Shown here one piece after another: positions 12,714-19,809 of a stretch of DNA of 51,179 nucleotides (position 1 is the first letter of the stretch; each line of letters starts with the position of its first letter). The DNA comes from SAR202 cluster bacterium bin87 (GTDB taxonomy: Bacteria > Chloroflexota > Dehalococcoidia > Lucifugimonadales > UBA3495). The notes below the pieces were generated by a model. It made no database searches, was not told the DNA's origin, and was given only the letters and a program-made list of their open reading frames with translations. The stretch covers positions 1-51,179 of the forward strand of contig MPNC01000002.1 of NCBI GenBank assembly GCA_002238825.1, written 5' to 3'. The position numbers and the translations under genes are program-made.

Positions 12714-13355
12714 CTAACCGTTTTCCTTCGCCTGGCGTTCCAGGATCCCCCTGATGGTGAACATGCGCTGGAACAGGGTGAAGCAGGACACGCCAGCGAT
12801 CACCCAGAGGACCCATACCATGATCGGCACGGGGGCCAGCCCTTCCACGATCAGGCCGATTCCCAGGATCGCGACGCGCTCGGTCCGGGTCATGATGCCC
12901 GAACGGGTGAACGCGCCGAGACCCTCGCCGCGAGCGCGCAGATAAGAGACCCCCTGCGAGAACACCAGGCCCAACAGGACCGATAACATGCTGAAGATCC
13001 TCTCTGGTTGGGACAAATCCGCGAGCAGGTAATACAGCCCCAACCCGACAAACAGCGCAGCCTCGCCCAACCGGTCGAAAACGGAATCGAGCAAGGCGCC
13101 AAAGGGTGACGCCCTTCCGGTGAGACGGGCCAACCCGCCGTCAAACAAATCCAGAATACCGCCGGCCAGGAACACGATGCCGCCGTACAGGGGGTATCCC
13201 AAAGCCACCAACGCCGCCCCGGCCGCGCACACCGCGAATCCGAAGACGGTGATGACATTTGGGGTCAGCCCCACGGCGTGGAGGGCCCGCGCCCCGGGCA
13301 ACTCGACGTAGCGCAGCATCGCCGCGCGCAACTCCTCTCTACCGGGCATTGCCAC
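12714..13355 (-). CDS. CDP-alcohol phosphatidyltransferase, probable phosphatidylinositol-phosphate synthase
   Basis: 213 aa integral membrane enzyme with about six hydrophobic helices. The complete catalytic signature D-x2-DG-x2-AR-x8-G-x3-D-x3-D is present: Asp69, Asp72, Gly73, Ala76, Arg77, Gly86, Asp90, Asp94. The family transfers a phosphatidyl group from CDP-diacylglycerol to an alcohol. Specificity is inferred from neighbours: inositol-3-phosphate synthase and a PimA-like mannosyltransferase precede it in the same direction, so inositol phosphate is the likely acceptor, as in mycobacterial PgsA1. It overlaps the PimA-like gene by 17 nt, indicating translational coupling. A phosphatidylglycerophosphate synthase cannot be excluded from the motif alone. 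Confidence 0.85.
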   Translation of the reverse strand: MAMPGREELRAAMLRYVELPGARALHAVGLTPNVITVFGFAVCAAGAALVALGYPLYGGIVFLAGGILDLFDGGLARLTGRASPFGALLDSVFDRLGEAALFVGLGLYYLLADLSQPERIFSMLSVLLGLVFSQGVSYLRARGEGLGAFTRSGIMTRTERVAILGIGLIVEGLAPVPIMVWVLWVIAGVSCFTLFQRMFTIRGILERQAKENG

Positions 13356-14493
13356 CGTGGTTGGCCTCCTCCATGCAGTGTTGGTAATAGTCTTCGACTT
13401 CCGAAGCGACCCGTTGCCAGCGATGATTTTGCGCCACGCGCTTTCCGGAGGCCGACAATCGCAGGACGAGTTCCGGGTTGTCGATCACGGCGGCGATGGC
13501 GGCGGCGATGGAACTCGGCTCACGCGGCGATGCCAGCAATCCGTTGCATTCGTGGGCCACGACGTCGCGGTAACCGTCGATATCCGATGCGACTACCGGA
13601 ACGCCGGCGGCCATTGCCTCCAACAGTACTATCCCGAAGCTCTCTCCGCCGGTGGCGGGACTGCAAAAAACGTCGGCGCTGGCGTAATAACGAGGCAGGT
13701 CATCGCCGCTGACCGCGCCGACCAATCGCACCATGTCGTCACCGACCCCGGCTATGGCGTTGATCCATGATGCGCATGCCTGATCCGGTTCGCCAGGGCC
13801 CACAACGACCAACCTGAGATCACGCCGACGTTCGAGCAAGCGAGCGAATGCCTCCAGAAGATAGCGCAGACCCTTGCGTTCATCCTTGCGCCCAACGAAC
13901 AGCACGTTTATCTTCCCGTCCAGCAACTCAGGCAGCGGGCTGGCATCAGCGAAACGCCCGAAGTCGATGCCATTGGGAATCACGCGATACGCCCGGTTCG
14001 GAAAGTGGGGAGCCACGAAGGATCGGGCGGCCTCGGAAACGGCGATATGTCCGTGGAGCCGGCGGTGCCAGGTCTTCAGGGCAAACCTTGACCAACGGTA
14101 CAACTGCTGACCGTCCGAAAACGCGTGGAAGGTGCCGATGTTAACGGCGTTGGAATGATGCAGGAACATCAAGGGCAGCAGTGGAGCCAGTGGTTCGTGC
14201 ACGTGGACCAGGTCGAACCGCTCGTGAGCCAAGATTTGCCTGACCCGCGGCCACAGCCACCACGCAAGCGTCACCCGCGCCGTTGATCCCCCAGCCGAAA
14301 GAGGAACGGATCCACCCATCGGGATGAAATTGTCGAGATTACCGTCTTCATTCGAAGGGTGCATCGGGGTTCGCGGAGCGACGATGGTCACTTCATGCCC
14401 GCGGCTCCGCAATTCATCGGAGAGTTGGGACACATGGGCATTGACACCGCCGGGCCACGCGAAGTCATAAGGGGAGACCATGGCTACTTTCAT
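13339..14493 (-). CDS. GT4 glycosyltransferase, PimA-like (phosphatidylinositol mannosyltransferase)
   Basis: 384 aa GT-B fold enzyme. The N-terminal Gly-rich loop VSPYDFAWPGGVNAHVSQL (6-24) is very close to that of mycobacterial PimA. His123 in TFHAFSD, Arg202/Lys207 in GRKDERKGL and TGGESFGIVLLEAMAAG (281-297) occupy the positions that bind GDP-mannose and the acceptor in PimA. The expected reaction is mannose transfer from GDP-mannose to the inositol of phosphatidylinositol at the inner membrane face. Other GT4 enzymes share the fold, so donor and acceptor need proof, but the adjacent inositol synthase and CDP-alcohol transferase genes support the call. A GGGGAG-like site precedes the ATG. 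Confidence 0.85.
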   Translation of the reverse strand: MKVAMVSPYDFAWPGGVNAHVSQLSDELRSRGHEVTIVAPRTPMHPSNEDGNLDNFIPMGGSVPLSAGGSTARVTLAWWLWPRVRQILAHERFDLVHVHEPLAPLLPLMFLHHSNAVNIGTFHAFSDGQQLYRWSRFALKTWHRRLHGHIAVSEAARSFVAPHFPNRAYRVIPNGIDFGRFADASPLPELLDGKINVLFVGRKDERKGLRYLLEAFARLLERRRDLRLVVVGPGEPDQACASWINAIAGVGDDMVRLVGAVSGDDLPRYYASADVFCSPATGGESFGIVLLEAMAAGVPVVASDIDGYRDVVAHECNGLLASPREPSSIAAAIAAVIDNPELVLRLSASGKRVAQNHRWQRVASEVEDYYQHCMEEANHGGNAR

Positions 14494-14546
14494 AGCCCGC
14501 TCCCCTCAGTAGATCCCAGCCCAGAAATGCAGGGAAGTAGCGCCGG

Positions 14547-15659
14547 TTATTCTTCTCCGTCGCCGTGCTTGACCTGCACGCTGACCACCGCCGGCTCGGA
14601 GATAAACGCCTCGACCATGTCGTGCGCTTCGGAGTCGGAGTACTGGACCGGCGGGCTCTTCATGAAGTAGGCAGAGGGGGCGAACACGGCGCCACCCTGA
14701 CCACGGTCCAAAGCCAGCTTGGCGCACCGGATGGCGTCCACCACGACGCCGGCAGAGTTTGGGCTGTCCCAGACCTCCAGCTTGACTTCCATCTTGACCG
14801 GAGCGCCGCCGAAGACCTTGCCGTCAATGTGGATGTAGCACCACTTGCGGTCCTGCAACCACGGCACGTGGTCGCTGGGTCCGATGTGAATGGTGTCCGC
14901 GTCGGGTTCTTCCTGCATCTGGCTAGTGACGGAGCCGGTTTTGGAGATCTTCTTGGACACCAGGCGTTCGCGTTCCAGCATGTTGAGGAAGTCGGTGTTG
15001 CCGCCGAAATTCAGCTGGTAGGTGTTGTCGATCTCGGCGCCGCGGTTCTCCATCAGCCGGGTCAGCACTCGGTGAACTATGGTCGCGCCGACCTGGGATT
15101 TTATGTCATCGCCGATGACGGGCACACCCCGCTCCTCGAAGCGGTTGCGCCAGTACTCTTCACGAGCGATGAAAACCGGGATGCAGTTGATCATGGCGCA
15201 GCGGGCGTCGAGGATCTGTTCGACGTACCATTTGGTTGCCATTTCGCTGCCCACGGGCAGGTAGTTGATCACCACGTCGACTTCGCGCTCGCGCAGGATG
15301 CCCGAGATGTCGGCGGTGCTGTGCTCCGATTTCACTACTACATCCGTGAGGTAACGTCCGATCCCATCGTGAGTCATGCCCCGTTCGACGGGCACTCCCA
15401 TGTAGGGAACTTCGGCGAACTTGATGGTGTTGTTAGGCTCGGTGAAAATGGCCTCCGACAGATCTTTCCCAACCTTATTGCGGTCGACGTCGAAAGCGGC
15501 AACGACTTCGATATCCTCGATTCGGTAATCTCCAATGCGATTGTGCATCACGCCGGGGATCGGGTCGTCGTCCGGCACCTCAACGTATTTGTGGATGCCC
15601 TGGACCAGCGAAGACGCGCAGTTGCCCACGCCGATAATGGCAACCTTAATCGTGCCCAA
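14547..15659 (-). CDS. ino1: inositol-3-phosphate synthase
   Basis: About 370 aa, the length of actinobacterial Ino1. NAD-binding [20 protein letters not shown] opens the protein, and [31 protein letters not shown] and a KISKTGSV active-site lysine segment follow. It converts glucose-6-phosphate to myo-inositol-3-phosphate with NAD as catalytic cofactor. Start: TTG at 15659 is preferred since AAGGAG (15667-15672) lies 7 nt upstream; an ATG at 15695 would add 12 residues but has poorly spaced ribosome binding. It is the first of three genes that together could make phosphatidylinositol phosphate and a mannosylated derivative. Confidence 0.93.
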
Positions 15660-15787
15660 TTGTGTACTCCTTGCGGCCCGCCCCGGGGCAGACATCCCTC
15701 AAAACCGGGACTGGAAATTATCGAGGCCAACCTGCATCAAACTGCCAGACAGTCTAACACACGCGGAATCTTGGTGCCCTTTTAGAG

Positions 15788-15842: not shown

Positions 15843-16523
15843 CTAGTCCTCGGCGAAGAAACGGAAAATCGCGGTCTCGTCATCGTGGCGGAACCTGCCG
15901 CCGCGGAACCGGATGTCGCGCCCCTGCTCGATGTGGTGATCAACGAGTTCCTTCACTCGGCCGGATGCTTCCTCAGCATCCGCGGAGCCGCGAACGATCT
16001 CCATCAGTTCGTCGCCGAGCAGGTTGTCGCTGACGCCGTCGGTGCAGCATACCAAGCGGTCTGCGGCCGACAGATCAAGGGTGGTTTGAAACACCGACAG
16101 GCCAGGTTCTGCTCCGATGGCCTTGGAAACCCCCAGGCGTATCAACCCGCCCATGCGTCCGCTGTATTGCTCGTATCCGTCGGGGCGGATCACGTAAATC
16201 GGACTGTCGCCAGCGGAAATGATGTGGAGTTGGCCGTTGAGATACAAAGCTGCCGAGGCGGTGGTCAGCAGGAACCGTCCTCCCCCAACCTGGTGGAACT
16301 CGGCGTTCTGCTCGTCCAGAACGGCAACGATGTCCTCGGGTCCGGTTATGTTGATGGCTTTGAGGGCGTCAGCCACGGAACCACTGGCCTCGTCGCCGCC
16401 GTGACCGGTGACGCCGTCCAGCACCACGTCCAGGAAGTTGCCGTCGCCCAAATCGCGGGTCAGGTAGTTGTCCTCGCCGTGAGCGGCGTTGTCGTGAAGA
16501 ATAGCCAACGAACTGGTGAGCAT
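15843..16523 (-). CDS. PP2C-family serine/threonine protein phosphatase
   Basis: 226 aa, a compact PP2C/SpoIIE-type phosphatase. Motifs: GEDNYL (16-21, acidic metal ligand), VVLDGVTGHGG (33-43, the DGxxGH metal site), SAGDSPIYVIR, CCTDGVSDNLL and the terminal DDETAIF. All metal-binding aspartates expected for a two-metal centre are present. The gene follows an atypical protein kinase gene by 38 nt in the same direction, so the two probably form a reversible phosphorylation pair. Soluble; no membrane segment. Confidence 0.9.
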   Translation of the reverse strand: MLTSSLAILHDNAAHGEDNYLTRDLGDGNFLDVVLDGVTGHGGDEASGSVADALKAINITGPEDIVAVLDEQNAEFHQVGGGRFLLTTASAALYLNGQLHIISAGDSPIYVIRPDGYEQYSGRMGGLIRLGVSKAIGAEPGLSVFQTTLDLSAADRLVCCTDGVSDNLLGDELMEIVRGSADAEEASGRVKELVDHHIEQGRDIRFRGGRFRHDDETAIFRFFAED

Positions 16524-16561
16524 AGTTCCTGCATCCTCACATAAATTTGGTTTGCAGCGGA

Positions 16562-17587
16562 TCAGCCGGCCTGGACGGCCAGCTCAGTGTTCGCGTCGAA
16601 TCGATAGCGTGTCCAGTGGTCCTCGGAGAGCCGGTGCAGCGCGGCGACCCACGCTTCCATTGCTGCCGGCCGGTCTGACATATCGTCGTTTCGGATGGTA
16701 ATCAGACCCAGGCATTCGCGCAAGTCTGCTGCGAAATCCGCAACGGACGTGTACGCGCGTTGCCGCACTTTCCCCAAACATGCCGTGGCGGCTTCCCGCA
16801 ACGTGTCACCCGCCATTGCGAACGCGCCGGCCAGGCTGTCGCATTCGTCCTCTACGGAGATGACCGGCCGCTGGTTGTAGGGGTCGAAGTACCCGGACGC
16901 ATCCGTGGGCGGCAGCTCGGGAGCGAGGTAGAATTTCACCATTTCCACGTAAAAATCGTGAACGTCCTGGCGACCCCGGTTGGCCTGACTGGTCTCGACT
17001 CCGTGTCCAACCAGGGCGCTGGCATCGACCAGCGCGATCCGGCCGGTGCCGGGGGAGTAGAACACATTGTGGGGTCCAAGGTCGAGCAGCGCGTAGCCGG
17101 CGTTGGCGTAGATTTCCTGCGCTTCCAGCAGCTGCGTCTGGACCGGCCAGTCGTCCACTCCATCGGGAAGCGCGAGCGGATGCAACGCGAAGAGATTCTG
17201 ACCCAGGCCGATCGGCACCCGCAGGATACGACTTCGGGGGTCTCCAACCAGCGGGATCCCGGCGGCGCGTTCCTCGACGCGTACGGAATAGGGTTGGCCC
17301 AGATCCTCGCCGAAATACTCGTCGTGGAGGGCCACCTCGGTAACTCCGACAACTCGGGGCACGAAGTCGCAGTACTGTCCGGCTCGTTCGTAGGCTTCCA
17401 GGGCCCGCGCGGTGCGCTCCTCGATCGGGCCGTGCATTTGCCGGCGCACGGTTTGCGGAGAGGGGCGCTTGAGCACGACCGGTTCACCGGTCTGCCGGTC
17501 CACCGCGGCGCGCACATCGTAGTCGGCGCCGCTGCCCAGCGGACCGACCATCTCGAACCGATCCAGCGTTACAGTTTCCATACCCAT
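16562..17587 (-). CDS. atypical serine/threonine protein kinase-like protein
   Basis: 341 aa with a kinase-like core. Glycine loop VGPLGSGADYDVRAAVD (14-30), the ATP-lysine Lys40 in VVLKRP, a catalytic-loop equivalent LLDLGPHNVF with Asp169 and Asn174, and a metal aspartate Asp188 in IALVDAS where DFG is normal. HRD is replaced by LLD and DFG by VDA, so it is divergent, but Lys, Asp, Asn and Asp are retained and activity is plausible. No transmembrane or sensor domain follows. The C-terminal 80 residues (DLRECLGLI onward) are helical and unassigned. It starts 4 nt after prmA and precedes the PP2C gene. Confidence 0.65.
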   Translation of the reverse strand: MGMETVTLDRFEMVGPLGSGADYDVRAAVDRQTGEPVVLKRPSPQTVRRQMHGPIEERTARALEAYERAGQYCDFVPRVVGVTEVALHDEYFGEDLGQPYSVRVEERAAGIPLVGDPRSRILRVPIGLGQNLFALHPLALPDGVDDWPVQTQLLEAQEIYANAGYALLDLGPHNVFYSPGTGRIALVDASALVGHGVETSQANRGRQDVHDFYVEMVKFYLAPELPPTDASGYFDPYNQRPVISVEDECDSLAGAFAMAGDTLREAATACLGKVRQRAYTSVADFAADLRECLGLITIRNDDMSDRPAAMEAWVAALHRLSEDHWTRYRFDANTELAVQAG

Positions 17588-17591
17588 CGAT

Positions 17592-18458
17592 CTACGACTG
17601 GCCGTGTCCGCTCAGGATCGTAACCCAGTCTTCCTTCTGCCGGATTTCACTGATGACCAACCCCGCGTCGTTGATTGCCGAAACTGCCTCGTCATGCTGG
17701 TCCACGATGATGCCGGACGCGATGAACACTCCGTCACGGGTGAGAAGATCGGGGATCGCCGGGGATACGATACTGATGCCGCGGGCGCTGATATTGGCCA
17801 CTGCGATATCGTAATTCACCCCTCGTGTCGCGGCGCTGGGGATACTGCCGGATTGAGCGTTGACTCGCTCAGCGATGCCGGTGCGGCGGAAGTTGCGCTG
17901 GGCGGCGCGTACCGCGTGCCCGTCGATGTCCACGGCGGTAATATGGCCGGCGCCCAGCTTGGCGGCGGCGATCGTCAGGATGCCGGAGCCCGTTCCAACG
18001 TCGAGAACGTTACTTCCGGGCCGAACCAATTCTTCCAGGGCTTCCAGGCAAGAATAGGTCGTCGGGTGGTACCCGGTTCCGAACGCCAGACCCGGGTCCA
18101 ACTCGACCAACACGTCGCCAGGCTGGGTTTCGTAATCGATCCAGGAGGGCTTGATCACCAGGTTGTTCCCAACGCGGAGCAGGGTGAAGTGCTGTTTCCA
18201 GTTGTCGCGCCAGTCTTCGTTGTCGTCCAGGGGCCGAATTTGCAACTCGCCGAGATCGGCAACGCTGGACGCCAGCTTGATACCCACCTCGATGTGCGCC
18301 AATCGCTGGCGGGACAAACTGGGCAGATACGAACGCAGCACCGCGAACTCGCCGGGTCGAGTTTCAACACTCAACCCGTATCCGTACCGCTCGAAGAGGT
18401 AGGACACGGGCTCCACGTATTCGAAGGGAACGTTGATGCTCAGTTCGTGCCAGGACAT
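17592..18458 (-). CDS. prmA: ribosomal protein L11 methyltransferase
   Basis: 288 aa. N-terminal substrate-recognition domain (about 1-95) with the EDWRDNWKQHF linker motif, then a class I SAM-dependent methyltransferase domain: PGLAFGTGYHPTTYSCLEAL (121-140), VLDVGTGSGILTIAAAKLGA, DIDGHAVRAAQRNF, and VANISARGI in place of the usual NILA. It trimethylates ribosomal protein L11. Its place directly after dnaJ is the arrangement seen in many Gram-positive-type bacteria. Gap to dnaJ is 62 nt. Confidence 0.93.
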   Translation of the reverse strand: MSWHELSINVPFEYVEPVSYLFERYGYGLSVETRPGEFAVLRSYLPSLSRQRLAHIEVGIKLASSVADLGELQIRPLDDNEDWRDNWKQHFTLLRVGNNLVIKPSWIDYETQPGDVLVELDPGLAFGTGYHPTTYSCLEALEELVRPGSNVLDVGTGSGILTIAAAKLGAGHITAVDIDGHAVRAAQRNFRRTGIAERVNAQSGSIPSAATRGVNYDIAVANISARGISIVSPAIPDLLTRDGVFIASGIIVDQHDEAVSAINDAGLVISEIRQKEDWVTILSGHGQS

Positions 18459-18520: not shown

Positions 18521-19780
18521 CTATTCGCCACCGGAGGTCAGGGTGTCCTTAATCCGGTCGAACAGACCGCGCTGCTTGTCGTCCGGTTGTGGCTCCTGCG
18601 GTTCCGGGCTGGGGTCAGGAGTGGCTTCCTCCGGTTCCGTGGCTTCATTTTCTGCCGGTTTCCGGTTGCTGGCGCGTTTCTTCCGGGGAGGCGCGGGCGG
18701 CCTCTTGCCATTGTTGGCCAGGGAATAGGCCAAATCCTCGACCAGTTTGCGCTGGTACTTGTTCAGCTTGGACGGTATGTCCACGTCCACCAGGACTCGG
18801 ATGTCGCCGCGCCGGTCCGTTGGCCGACCGTCGCGTCGGATGCGTGGGACGCCCCGCGCGCGAACCCGGAACTCGCTGCCGGCCTGGGTCCCGGGCGGTA
18901 TTTCAAGATCCACATCGTCGCCTTCCAGGGTGGGGATCTGTTTGGTCGTGCCCAGGGCAGCTTCGGCCATATTAAGTGACGCGCGGTACAGCAGGTCGGA
19001 CTCGTCGCGCACGAATAATGGATGTTCCCTCACTCGTACCTGAACGTAGAGGTTCCCCGGGGGTCCGCCGTTGGCTCCGGCATCGCCTTCTCCGGTGATC
19101 CGCACCTGCATGCCGTTGTCGACCCCAGCGGGAATGGTGACAGTGCGGGTACGGCGACGCCGTTCATAGCCCCGGGCGCGACAGTTCGAACACGGGGTCT
19201 CTATGGACCGACCACTACCGTTGCAACTGGAACAGGGAGTGGTCACCGCAAACTGGCCAAAAACGCTGCGCTGAGCGCGGCGCACCTGCCCGCTGCCGTT
19301 GCACGTGCGGCACGTACTGACCGAGGTCCCAGGTTCGTTGCCGGCTCCAGAGCAATGGTGACATGGCTCCACCCGATTGATTTCGATATCCTTGTCGCAA
19401 CCGAACACGGCCTCTTCGAAGGTCAGGTTGACCCGTTGGCTGATGTCCTCCCCGGAACGGGGCTGACTGGCGGTACGACCGCCACCGCCGAAGAAGGTAT
19501 CGAAAATGTCCCCGAAGCCATTAAACGGGTCGAAACCGTCGAAGCCGCGTTCACCGCCACCGTTTACTCCGGCGTGGCCGAAGCGGTCGTACCGGGTCCG
19601 CTTTTCCTGGTCGCTGAGGACCTGATAGGCCTCGTTGATTTCCTTGAACCTATCCTCGGCGCCCGGCGTTTTATTCCGGTCAGGATGGAATTCCATCGCC
19701 TTCCTGCGGAAAGCGCGACGGATCTCCTCTTCATTGGCTCCCCGGTCGACGCCGAGGGTTTCGTAATAGTCTACGGGCAT
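18521..19780 (-). CDS. dnaJ: chaperone DnaJ
   Basis: About 419 aa. J domain (1-70) with HPD motif in EFHPDRNK, glycine/phenylalanine-rich linker (GGGERGFDGFDPFNGFG), four cysteine motifs CHHCSGAG, CRTCNGSG, CSSCNGSG and CSNCRARG, then two C-terminal substrate-binding domains. The fourth motif lacks its first glycine but keeps both cysteines. After the last domain comes an unusual 60-residue tail, first basic (PPRKKRASNRK) then rich in Glu and Pro. DnaJ stimulates DnaK; no dnaK or grpE gene is within the window. Start MPVDYYETLGV is the family-standard one; the frame extends 6 codons upstream to a GTG. Confidence 0.95.
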   Translation of the reverse strand: MPVDYYETLGVDRGANEEEIRRAFRRKAMEFHPDRNKTPGAEDRFKEINEAYQVLSDQEKRTRYDRFGHAGVNGGGERGFDGFDPFNGFGDIFDTFFGGGGRTASQPRSGEDISQRVNLTFEEAVFGCDKDIEINRVEPCHHCSGAGNEPGTSVSTCRTCNGSGQVRRAQRSVFGQFAVTTPCSSCNGSGRSIETPCSNCRARGYERRRRTRTVTIPAGVDNGMQVRITGEGDAGANGGPPGNLYVQVRVREHPLFVRDESDLLYRASLNMAEAALGTTKQIPTLEGDDVDLEIPPGTQAGSEFRVRARGVPRIRRDGRPTDRRGDIRVLVDVDIPSKLNKYQRKLVEDLAYSLANNGKRPPAPPRKKRASNRKPAENEATEPEEATPDPSPEPQEPQPDDKQRGLFDRIKDTLTSGGE

Positions 19781-19809
19781 AGCTTTCTGGCGAGTCACAA
19801 TTTGGTTCG

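Follow-up and report, generated by a model that had tools for sequence, protein, structure and literature searches.

An atypical eukaryotic-like kinase paired with a PP2C-type phosphatase in one order of uncultured Chloroflexota: a probable soluble phosphorylation switch

Background

Bacterial Ser/Thr kinases of the Hanks type are known with PP2C-type phosphatases as their partners, among them PknB with PstP, PrkC with PrpC and Stk1 with Stp1. Another phosphatase, PppA of the Pseudomonas type VI secretion system, partners the kinase PpkA. An account of the eukaryotic-like kinases (ELKs) by Kannan et al. (PMC1821047) lists G52, K72, E91, P104, H158, H164, D166, N171, D184 and D220 as their key residues, with 36 residues from D184 to D220 in PKA numbering, and in the same account and in PMC4702295 a short activation segment is described as more usual among small-molecule kinases.

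The window analyzed here, 51,179 nucleotides at the start of contig MPNC01000002.1 of SAR202 cluster bacterium bin87, carries a gene for an atypical kinase (gene and protein are both called KIN below) followed by a gene for a PP2C-type phosphatase. A literature search found no account of the KIN-PP2C pair, and one may still be in print. The window's own family is labeled f1, and other families, genera (g), genomes (G) and loci (L) are numbered where they need to be told apart.

The locus and its gene models

The features of the locus are listed in Table 1. Both reading frames of the original prediction, the kinase-like one at 16562-17587 and the PP2C one at 15843-16523, were found as described, with the same spacer between them; both lie on the reverse strand. 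The start of KIN is best placed at the ATG at 17581 because a start codon occupies the position of this ATG (METVTL...) in all 28 of the f1 relatives read. KIN is then 10 nt from prmA; the 4 nt originally given holds for the upstream ATG at 17587, which yields 341 aa, and does not hold for the conserved start. The residues and strings named for the kinase (K40, D169, N174 and D188; LLDLGPHN and VDAS) are all present in the 341-aa numbering. The 339-aa numbering is used from here on.

Table 1. Features of the KIN-PP2C locus in the window
Feature	Coordinates	Strand	Length, evidence or remarks
KIN, atypical eukaryotic-like kinase	16562..17581	-	339 aa; ORF, start placed by relatives
KIN landmarks: G16/G18 loop, K38, D167, N172, D186, F-helix D206			339-aa numbering
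Two codons (ATG GGT) 5' of KIN	17582..17587	-	start in the original prediction; not conserved among relatives
PP2C-type Ser/Thr phosphatase	15843..16523	-	226 aa; Pfam, alignment, model
KIN-PP2C spacer	16524..16561	-	38 nt
prmA (ribosomal protein L11 methyltransferase), neighbor	17592..18458	-	TIGR00406 201.4 bits, cut-off 183.15
dnaJ, neighbor	18521..19798	-	TIGR02349 425.1 bits, cut-off 377.2
ino1-type inositol-phosphate synthase, neighbor	14547..15695	-	PF01658 over cut-off; TIGR03450 495 bits, under cut-off 638
GT4 glycosyltransferase (GT), neighbor	13339..14493	-	PF00534 and PF13439 over cut-off; no NCBIfam cut-off passed
CDP-alcohol phosphatidyltransferase ("pgsA"), neighbor	12714..13355	-	PF01066

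Fold and active site of KIN

Searched on its own, the window KIN matched nothing in Pfam, NCBIfam or the PDB sequences at E<=1. PF00069 was matched weakly by 11 of 32 relatives (best E 3.2e-4), and the named ELK families gave weak Pfam matches in the KIN alignment, RIO1 at 0.096 and ABC1 at 0.29, in one member each. The sensitive profile search that had been proposed for the kinase was made with a profile of 35 relatives, and 147 PDB sequences were matched at E<=0.001 (best E 2e-6); the best 60 of the 147 were all protein kinases, and the one alignment that was examined covers the glycine loop and the catalytic loop. The AlphaFold model (pLDDT 91.9, pTM 0.91) forms one compact domain with further helices at the C terminus. 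Among the 50 rows listed by VIA-align, the nearest folds were YabT (6g4j; Z 15.5, 230 residues aligned, rmsd 3.3, 14% identity) and PknB (Z 15.2), and the other 48, tied within 1, were protein kinases; small-molecule kinases are absent from these 50 rows, which shows nothing either way. Foldseek TM-scores, normalized by query length, were modest (0.33-0.52 in the best 50 rows). Structure prediction, the check named as able to refute an atypical kinase core, thus bears that core out.

No sensor or membrane segment was seen in KIN, either in the model or by hydropathy. The best 19-residue hydropathy in the window KIN is 1.05, and values above 1.6 occur in one of 32 kinase rows and four of 32 PP2C rows. 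This agrees with the original description of a kinase lacking any such part, and both KIN and PP2C are predicted to be soluble proteins of a single domain.

Residues were counted over 49 aligned sequences, out of the 63 genomes with KIN. G16, G18, K38, D167, N172 and D186 are invariant in all 49, so that the ELK key residues G52 (taken as G18), K72, D166, N171 and D184 each have an equivalent, and the F-helix aspartate D206, equivalent to D220, is Asp in 46. The candidate for the C-helix E91 is E54 (Glu in 45, Asp in three, Gln in one), the register of which against CaMK1D is uncertain. H158 and H164 are not kept: position 159 is variable, with His in seven sequences, and position 165 is Leu, Ile, Val or Ala throughout. 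Because K38, D167, N172 and D186 are invariant, KIN looks from its sequence to be an active kinase.

The departures from Hanks kinases lie in and after the catalytic loop, which reads LDLGPHN in the window protein, with VDAS at the place of DFG. The third DFG position is Gly in 33 of 49 sequences. The HRD arginine is missing, being Leu in the window, and by eye an arginine precedes the catalytic aspartate in one of the 49 (L066) only. At the position of PKA K168 the family has Gly (25/49, window included), Arg (22/49) or Asn (2/49). From the Mg-binding D186 to D206 there are 18-26 residues (median 20, 49 rows), 14 residues separate the strand at 190-192 from the helix at 207-218 in the model, and no APE was read in the aligned stretch of the family. 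Held against the features of a Hanks-type kinase, KIN has the ATP-site lysine, the catalytic Asp and Asn, the Mg-binding Asp and the overall fold, and lacks a PF00069 gathering score, the HRD arginine and an extended segment ending in APE. KIN thus resembles the protein kinases while missing several Hanks features, and its family appears to be an unnamed one.

The PP2C-type phosphatase

The PP2C protein passes the cut-offs of PF07228 (SpoIIE; 50.3 bits, cut-off 25) and PF13672 (PP2C_2; 25.1, cut-off 24), scores under that of PF00481 (19.2, cut-off 20.3), and fails the Stp1/IreP-type equivalog of NCBIfam (45.6 bits, cut-off 230). D18, D36-G37, D162 and D214-D215 are invariant in an alignment of 32 rows, and we take D36, D162 and D214-D215 to be the aspartates that bind metal. 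The model (pLDDT 90.9) lies nearest to PppA (6jkv; Z 25.9, 206 residues aligned, 22% identity), with Stp1, PstP and tPphA at Z 24.2-24.6 (PstP 24.3), the Stp-type enzymes being tied with PppA within about 1. In a phmmer search of the PDB the designed "Cake" repeat proteins came out on top over repeated short stretches, which was taken as an artefact, and the better relatives were PP2C chains at E 0.001-0.05. The family cut-offs, the metal-site aspartates and the fold confirm that the gene beside the kinase is a genuine PP2C gene, as had been predicted.

Distribution and pairing

One copy of KIN was found in the window's own genome. KIN was present in 36 of 60 genomes sampled as relatives, in two of 393 genomes sampled from the class (both f1), and as matches in four of 400 sampled from the phylum, where the only full-length match was that of the own genome and the other three were N-lobe fragments. 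A scan of genome contigs with short peptide patterns from the window protein gave eight loci, all in close relatives. In the order sample, 65 of 250 genomes had matches, of which 63 were kept; G401 and G471 were left out because their fragments of about 50 residues were taken as other kinases. The 63 consist of 46 of the 50 f1 genomes, the own genome included, and 17 genomes in families f6, f10, f116, f117 and f121. The f1 genomes without KIN (G008, G018, G565 and G566) are 56-86% complete. By the samples of class and phylum, KIN was found only in this one order. On a midpoint-rooted tree of KIN, the f1 kinases, the f10 kinases and the kinases without a phosphatase partner each form one group.

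PP2C of the window type, called present at E<=1e-20, occurred in 47 of the 250 order genomes (45 of the 50 in f1, and two in f10), and all 47 also have KIN; in the f1 genome G574, KIN is a fragment of 43 residues and PP2C is missing. Three pairs are split over two contigs (G004, G035 and G576), and 44 share a contig. In 43 of these 44 the two genes lie on the same strand no more than 160 nt apart; those of L114 overlap, by 1-4 nt according to which start is taken. These 43 close pairs and the co-occurrence in 47 of 47 genomes rule out that KIN and PP2C are neighbors by chance. In G575 they are 2.5 kb apart with two lipid-type genes between them. This insert (L134:2625-4589) encodes one further GT4 and one further CDP-alcohol phosphatidyltransferase, which in part align with the downstream copies at 26-32% identity.

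KIN occurs without a window-type PP2C in 15 genomes of f6, f116, f117 and f121. No PP2C adjoins KIN at the 14 loci that were read, which cover all of these genomes but G478, and a genome-wide search for PP2C in 14 lone-KIN genomes at E<=1e-5 gave nothing beyond weak hits, each within a larger frame, in G040 and G551. This suggests that the phosphatase is not needed for the basic role of KIN.

Other contexts were also considered for the locus. The only PADLOC match was to mad6 (E 0.026 over 37 KIN residues); it was taken as chance, and a defence system was rejected. A plasmid or phage gene was likewise rejected, as KIN matched no plasmid and no PHROGs family. PP2C matched one unnamed PHROGs family at 1.7e-5.

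Gene neighborhood

The order dnaJ-prmA-pair-ino1-GT-pgsA holds in f1 only, where the neighborhoods of 30 genomes were read. Upstream of the pair, prmA and dnaJ were found in 29 of the 30, and not within 6 kb in G028. Downstream, 26 of the 29 that could be judged have ino1 (L038 stops at a contig edge). GT follows in every one of 29, as a cut gene in L031, and pgsA in every one of 28 judged. The three without ino1 belong to genus g7 (L051, L052 and L120), which has lost the adjacent ino1 and kept the row pair-GT-pgsA; in two g7 genomes, G019 and G032, the only ino1-type match is a distant one elsewhere (31% over about 175 residues). The closest model for "pgsA" is the phosphatidylinositol phosphate (PIP) synthase NF045883 (134.7 bits, under the cut-off of 170), and the cluster of ino1, GT4 and CDP-alcohol phosphatidyltransferase (window 12714-15695; L067-L085) is a candidate inositol-phospholipid pathway.

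Several rows are interrupted. In two genera prmA and KIN are separated by an opposite-strand gene that by eye resembles cysteine synthase (L050:2431-3345 and L059:7140-8054), and what is by eye an MFS gene breaks the row in L036. All three insertions leave KIN beside PP2C.

Outside f1 the two parts of this neighborhood come apart. Nineteen ino1 loci in 18 genomes have no KIN, PP2C, prmA or dnaJ in the fetched flanks; GT adjoins ino1 in 18 loci (17 genomes) without the pair, and pgsA does so as well in 16 (15 genomes). Conversely, none of eight queried neighbor genes was found in the fetched flanks of the f10 pairs (two genomes) or of 14 lone KIN genes, some on short contigs, and in the f10 genome G044 an ino1-GT-pgsA row is present (L071) with the pair located elsewhere. 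Thus the f1 pair has a block on either side, and the ino1-GT block is the older, order-wide one. Acetamidase-like, SDR and other genes recur by eye among the clustered neighbors of the lone and f10 KIN genes, many of them in the opposite orientation; antisense frames add noise to these clusters, which pointed to no partner gene. A plsY-like gene (by eye) starts divergently beside the lone KIN of G040 (L066:7019-7786). In another genome (G038:C1), an identical-type ino1-GT-pgsA block lies near both ends of a 3.4-Mb contig (L068 and L069), perhaps an unclosed circular overlap.

Conservation of the pair with ino1 or prmA, proposed as a check on its role, is therefore found within f1 and fails outside it. 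Since the neighbors vary outside f1 and in g7, the target of the pair cannot be read from its position alone. A regulator dedicated to ino1 or to prmA is unsupported, as the neighbors change outside f1 and g7 keeps the pair without ino1. The suggestion that the pair controls the downstream lipid genes or ribosome-linked functions is weakened by the location of the pair elsewhere in f10, by the loss of ino1 in g7 and by the 17 genomes with ino1-GT alone.

Other kinases and phosphatases, and distance correlations

PF00069, the one kinase family covered, was searched in 26 f1 genomes at least 91% complete, all of them with KIN and PP2C. Eight had no match at E<=0.001, 14 had a match over the cut-off, and five had one above 100 bits. 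The own genome has three matches, one of 142 bits. Besides the window-type PP2C, a SpoIIE-type match above 180 bits was found in six of seven genomes searched, the own genome included. In the eight genomes without a PF00069 match KIN would be the natural partner kinase of PP2C; since further kinases and phosphatases exist, neither protein is proven to be the exclusive partner of the other.

Distances between KIN sequences were compared with those of other genes as partial correlations allowing for four neighbors, in 20 genomes that are not independent, and the values are a lead rather than a test. The partial r was 0.67 for KIN against PP2C (jackknife 0.62-0.69), 0.59 against GT (0.38-0.66), 0.21 against prmA, 0.01 against ino1 and -0.06 against dnaJ. 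When genus g1 was removed, the value for GT (0.56) exceeded that for PP2C (0.48).

Proposed function and alternatives

KIN and PP2C probably form a soluble switch for reversible protein phosphorylation. The folds predicted for both proteins, the unvarying residues of the active site, and the pairing with its spread are as described above; the switch would further require that KIN is catalytic, that it acts on a protein rather than a small molecule, and that KIN and PP2C oppose one another. ATP-Mg would be held by the glycine loop, K38, N172 and D186, and with D167 as the base a phosphate would be passed to a cytoplasmic protein, from which PP2C, the product of the next gene, would strip it. 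The activity of KIN might be set by a ligand, by the state of the substrate, or by the balance with the phosphatase; because the HRD arginine and APE are missing and the activation segment is short, KIN is probably not turned on by activation-loop phosphorylation. The products of the adjoining inositol-lipid genes are no more than candidate substrates.

The alternative that KIN phosphorylates a small molecule (inositol, a sugar or a lipid headgroup), with PP2C acting on other phosphoproteins or as a regulator and the two genes adjoining for expression only, is in our judgment unlikely. It draws its weight from the short segment and from the 15 genomes with a lone kinase, and the missing APE and HRD arginine, together with the glycine that 25 of 49 sequences have in place of K168, belong to the features described for small-molecule ELKs in PMC1821047 and PMC4702295. 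It can also draw on the extra C-terminal helices of the model, on the lipid genes that adjoin KIN within f1 and on the genomes that offer PP2C other kinases to oppose. A protein substrate is favored by the constant presence of KIN wherever PP2C is found (47/47), including the eight f1 genomes, out of 26, that gave no PF00069 match, by nearest listed folds that are protein kinases, by the lone KIN genes without those lipid genes in the fetched flanks, and by Arg at the K168 position in 22 of 49. We consider it highly improbable that KIN is a pseudokinase which binds nucleotide and serves PP2C as an allosteric partner. The odd catalytic loop, VDAS at the place of DFG and the glycine that the window protein has in place of K168 would fit such a protein; the invariance of K38, D167, N172 and D186 (49 of 49 sequences), the DFG glycine kept in 33 of the 49, and the persistence of KIN without PP2C in four families argue against it.

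A more specific proposal, compatible with the switch in that it names the substrate, has the pair dedicated to controlling the inositol-lipid pathway encoded beside it, through the GT4 or the PIP synthase rather than ino1. We hold this to be quite unlikely: GT and pgsA follow the pair in every judged f1 genome (29/29 and 28/28), even in g7 without ino1, the G575 insert places lipid-type genes between KIN and PP2C, and KIN distances follow those of GT, above PP2C once g1 is removed, but the f10 pair of G044 lies away from its ino1-GT-pgsA row, 18 ino1-GT loci in 17 genomes lack the pair, lone KIN genes have other neighbors, and the row is broken by inserted genes in L036, L050 and L059. We give next to no probability to the reading that KIN and PP2C are simply another Hanks-type Ser/Thr pair like PknB/PstP or PrkC/PrpC. 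The folds near PknB and YabT and near PstP and Stp1, and the pairing of the genes, are what such a pair would show, but that reading fails because the defining features that were tested are lacking: the window KIN had no Pfam or NCBIfam match at E<=1, has no HRD arginine, no extended segment and no membrane part or further domain, and PP2C reached 45.6 bits against the Stp1 cut-off of 230.

If the switch exists as proposed, KIN would represent a kinase family with the predicted fold and active site of a protein kinase, but without the peptide-positioning, regulatory activation segment of Hanks kinases. PP2C was never found without KIN in 250 genomes of the order. The pair offers a compact test of a short-segment kinase in reversible signaling and of the way in which it would reach protein substrates, and where PF00069 went unmatched, in eight of 26 f1 genomes, the pair may supply the kinase side of Ser/Thr signaling. 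It is tempting to speculate further, on what is a very doubtful reading taken as a whole, that this is a new family of short-segment eukaryotic-like protein kinases in one uncultured Chloroflexota order, with its own PP2C and in some genomes as the sole Pkinase-like enzyme found, which tunes the synthesis of glycosylated inositol phospholipids via the GT4 and the PIP synthase.

Comparison with known systems

The pair resembles the known Hanks-type pairs in the two-lobe kinase fold, in the kept Lys, Asp, Asn and Asp of the active site, in the adjoining PP2C gene and in the fold of PP2C near Stp1 and PstP. KIN differs from those kinases in the absence of the HRD arginine and APE and in the 18-26 rather than 36 residues between the two aspartates, and the pair differs in having no membrane or sensor part, in scoring under the family cut-offs and in having turned up in a single order. 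YabT of Bacillus subtilis stands first in the list for KIN at 14% identity, tied within 1 with many protein kinases, and PppA stands first in the list for PP2C at Z 25.9 and 22% identity, tied within about 1 with Stp-type enzymes. With the ELKs, as they are presented by Kannan et al. (PMC1821047), KIN shares a short post-DFG segment, the F-helix aspartate and a family-specific catalytic Asp-Asn stretch; it differs from them in its weak Pfam matches to the named ELK families and in having a PP2C partner.
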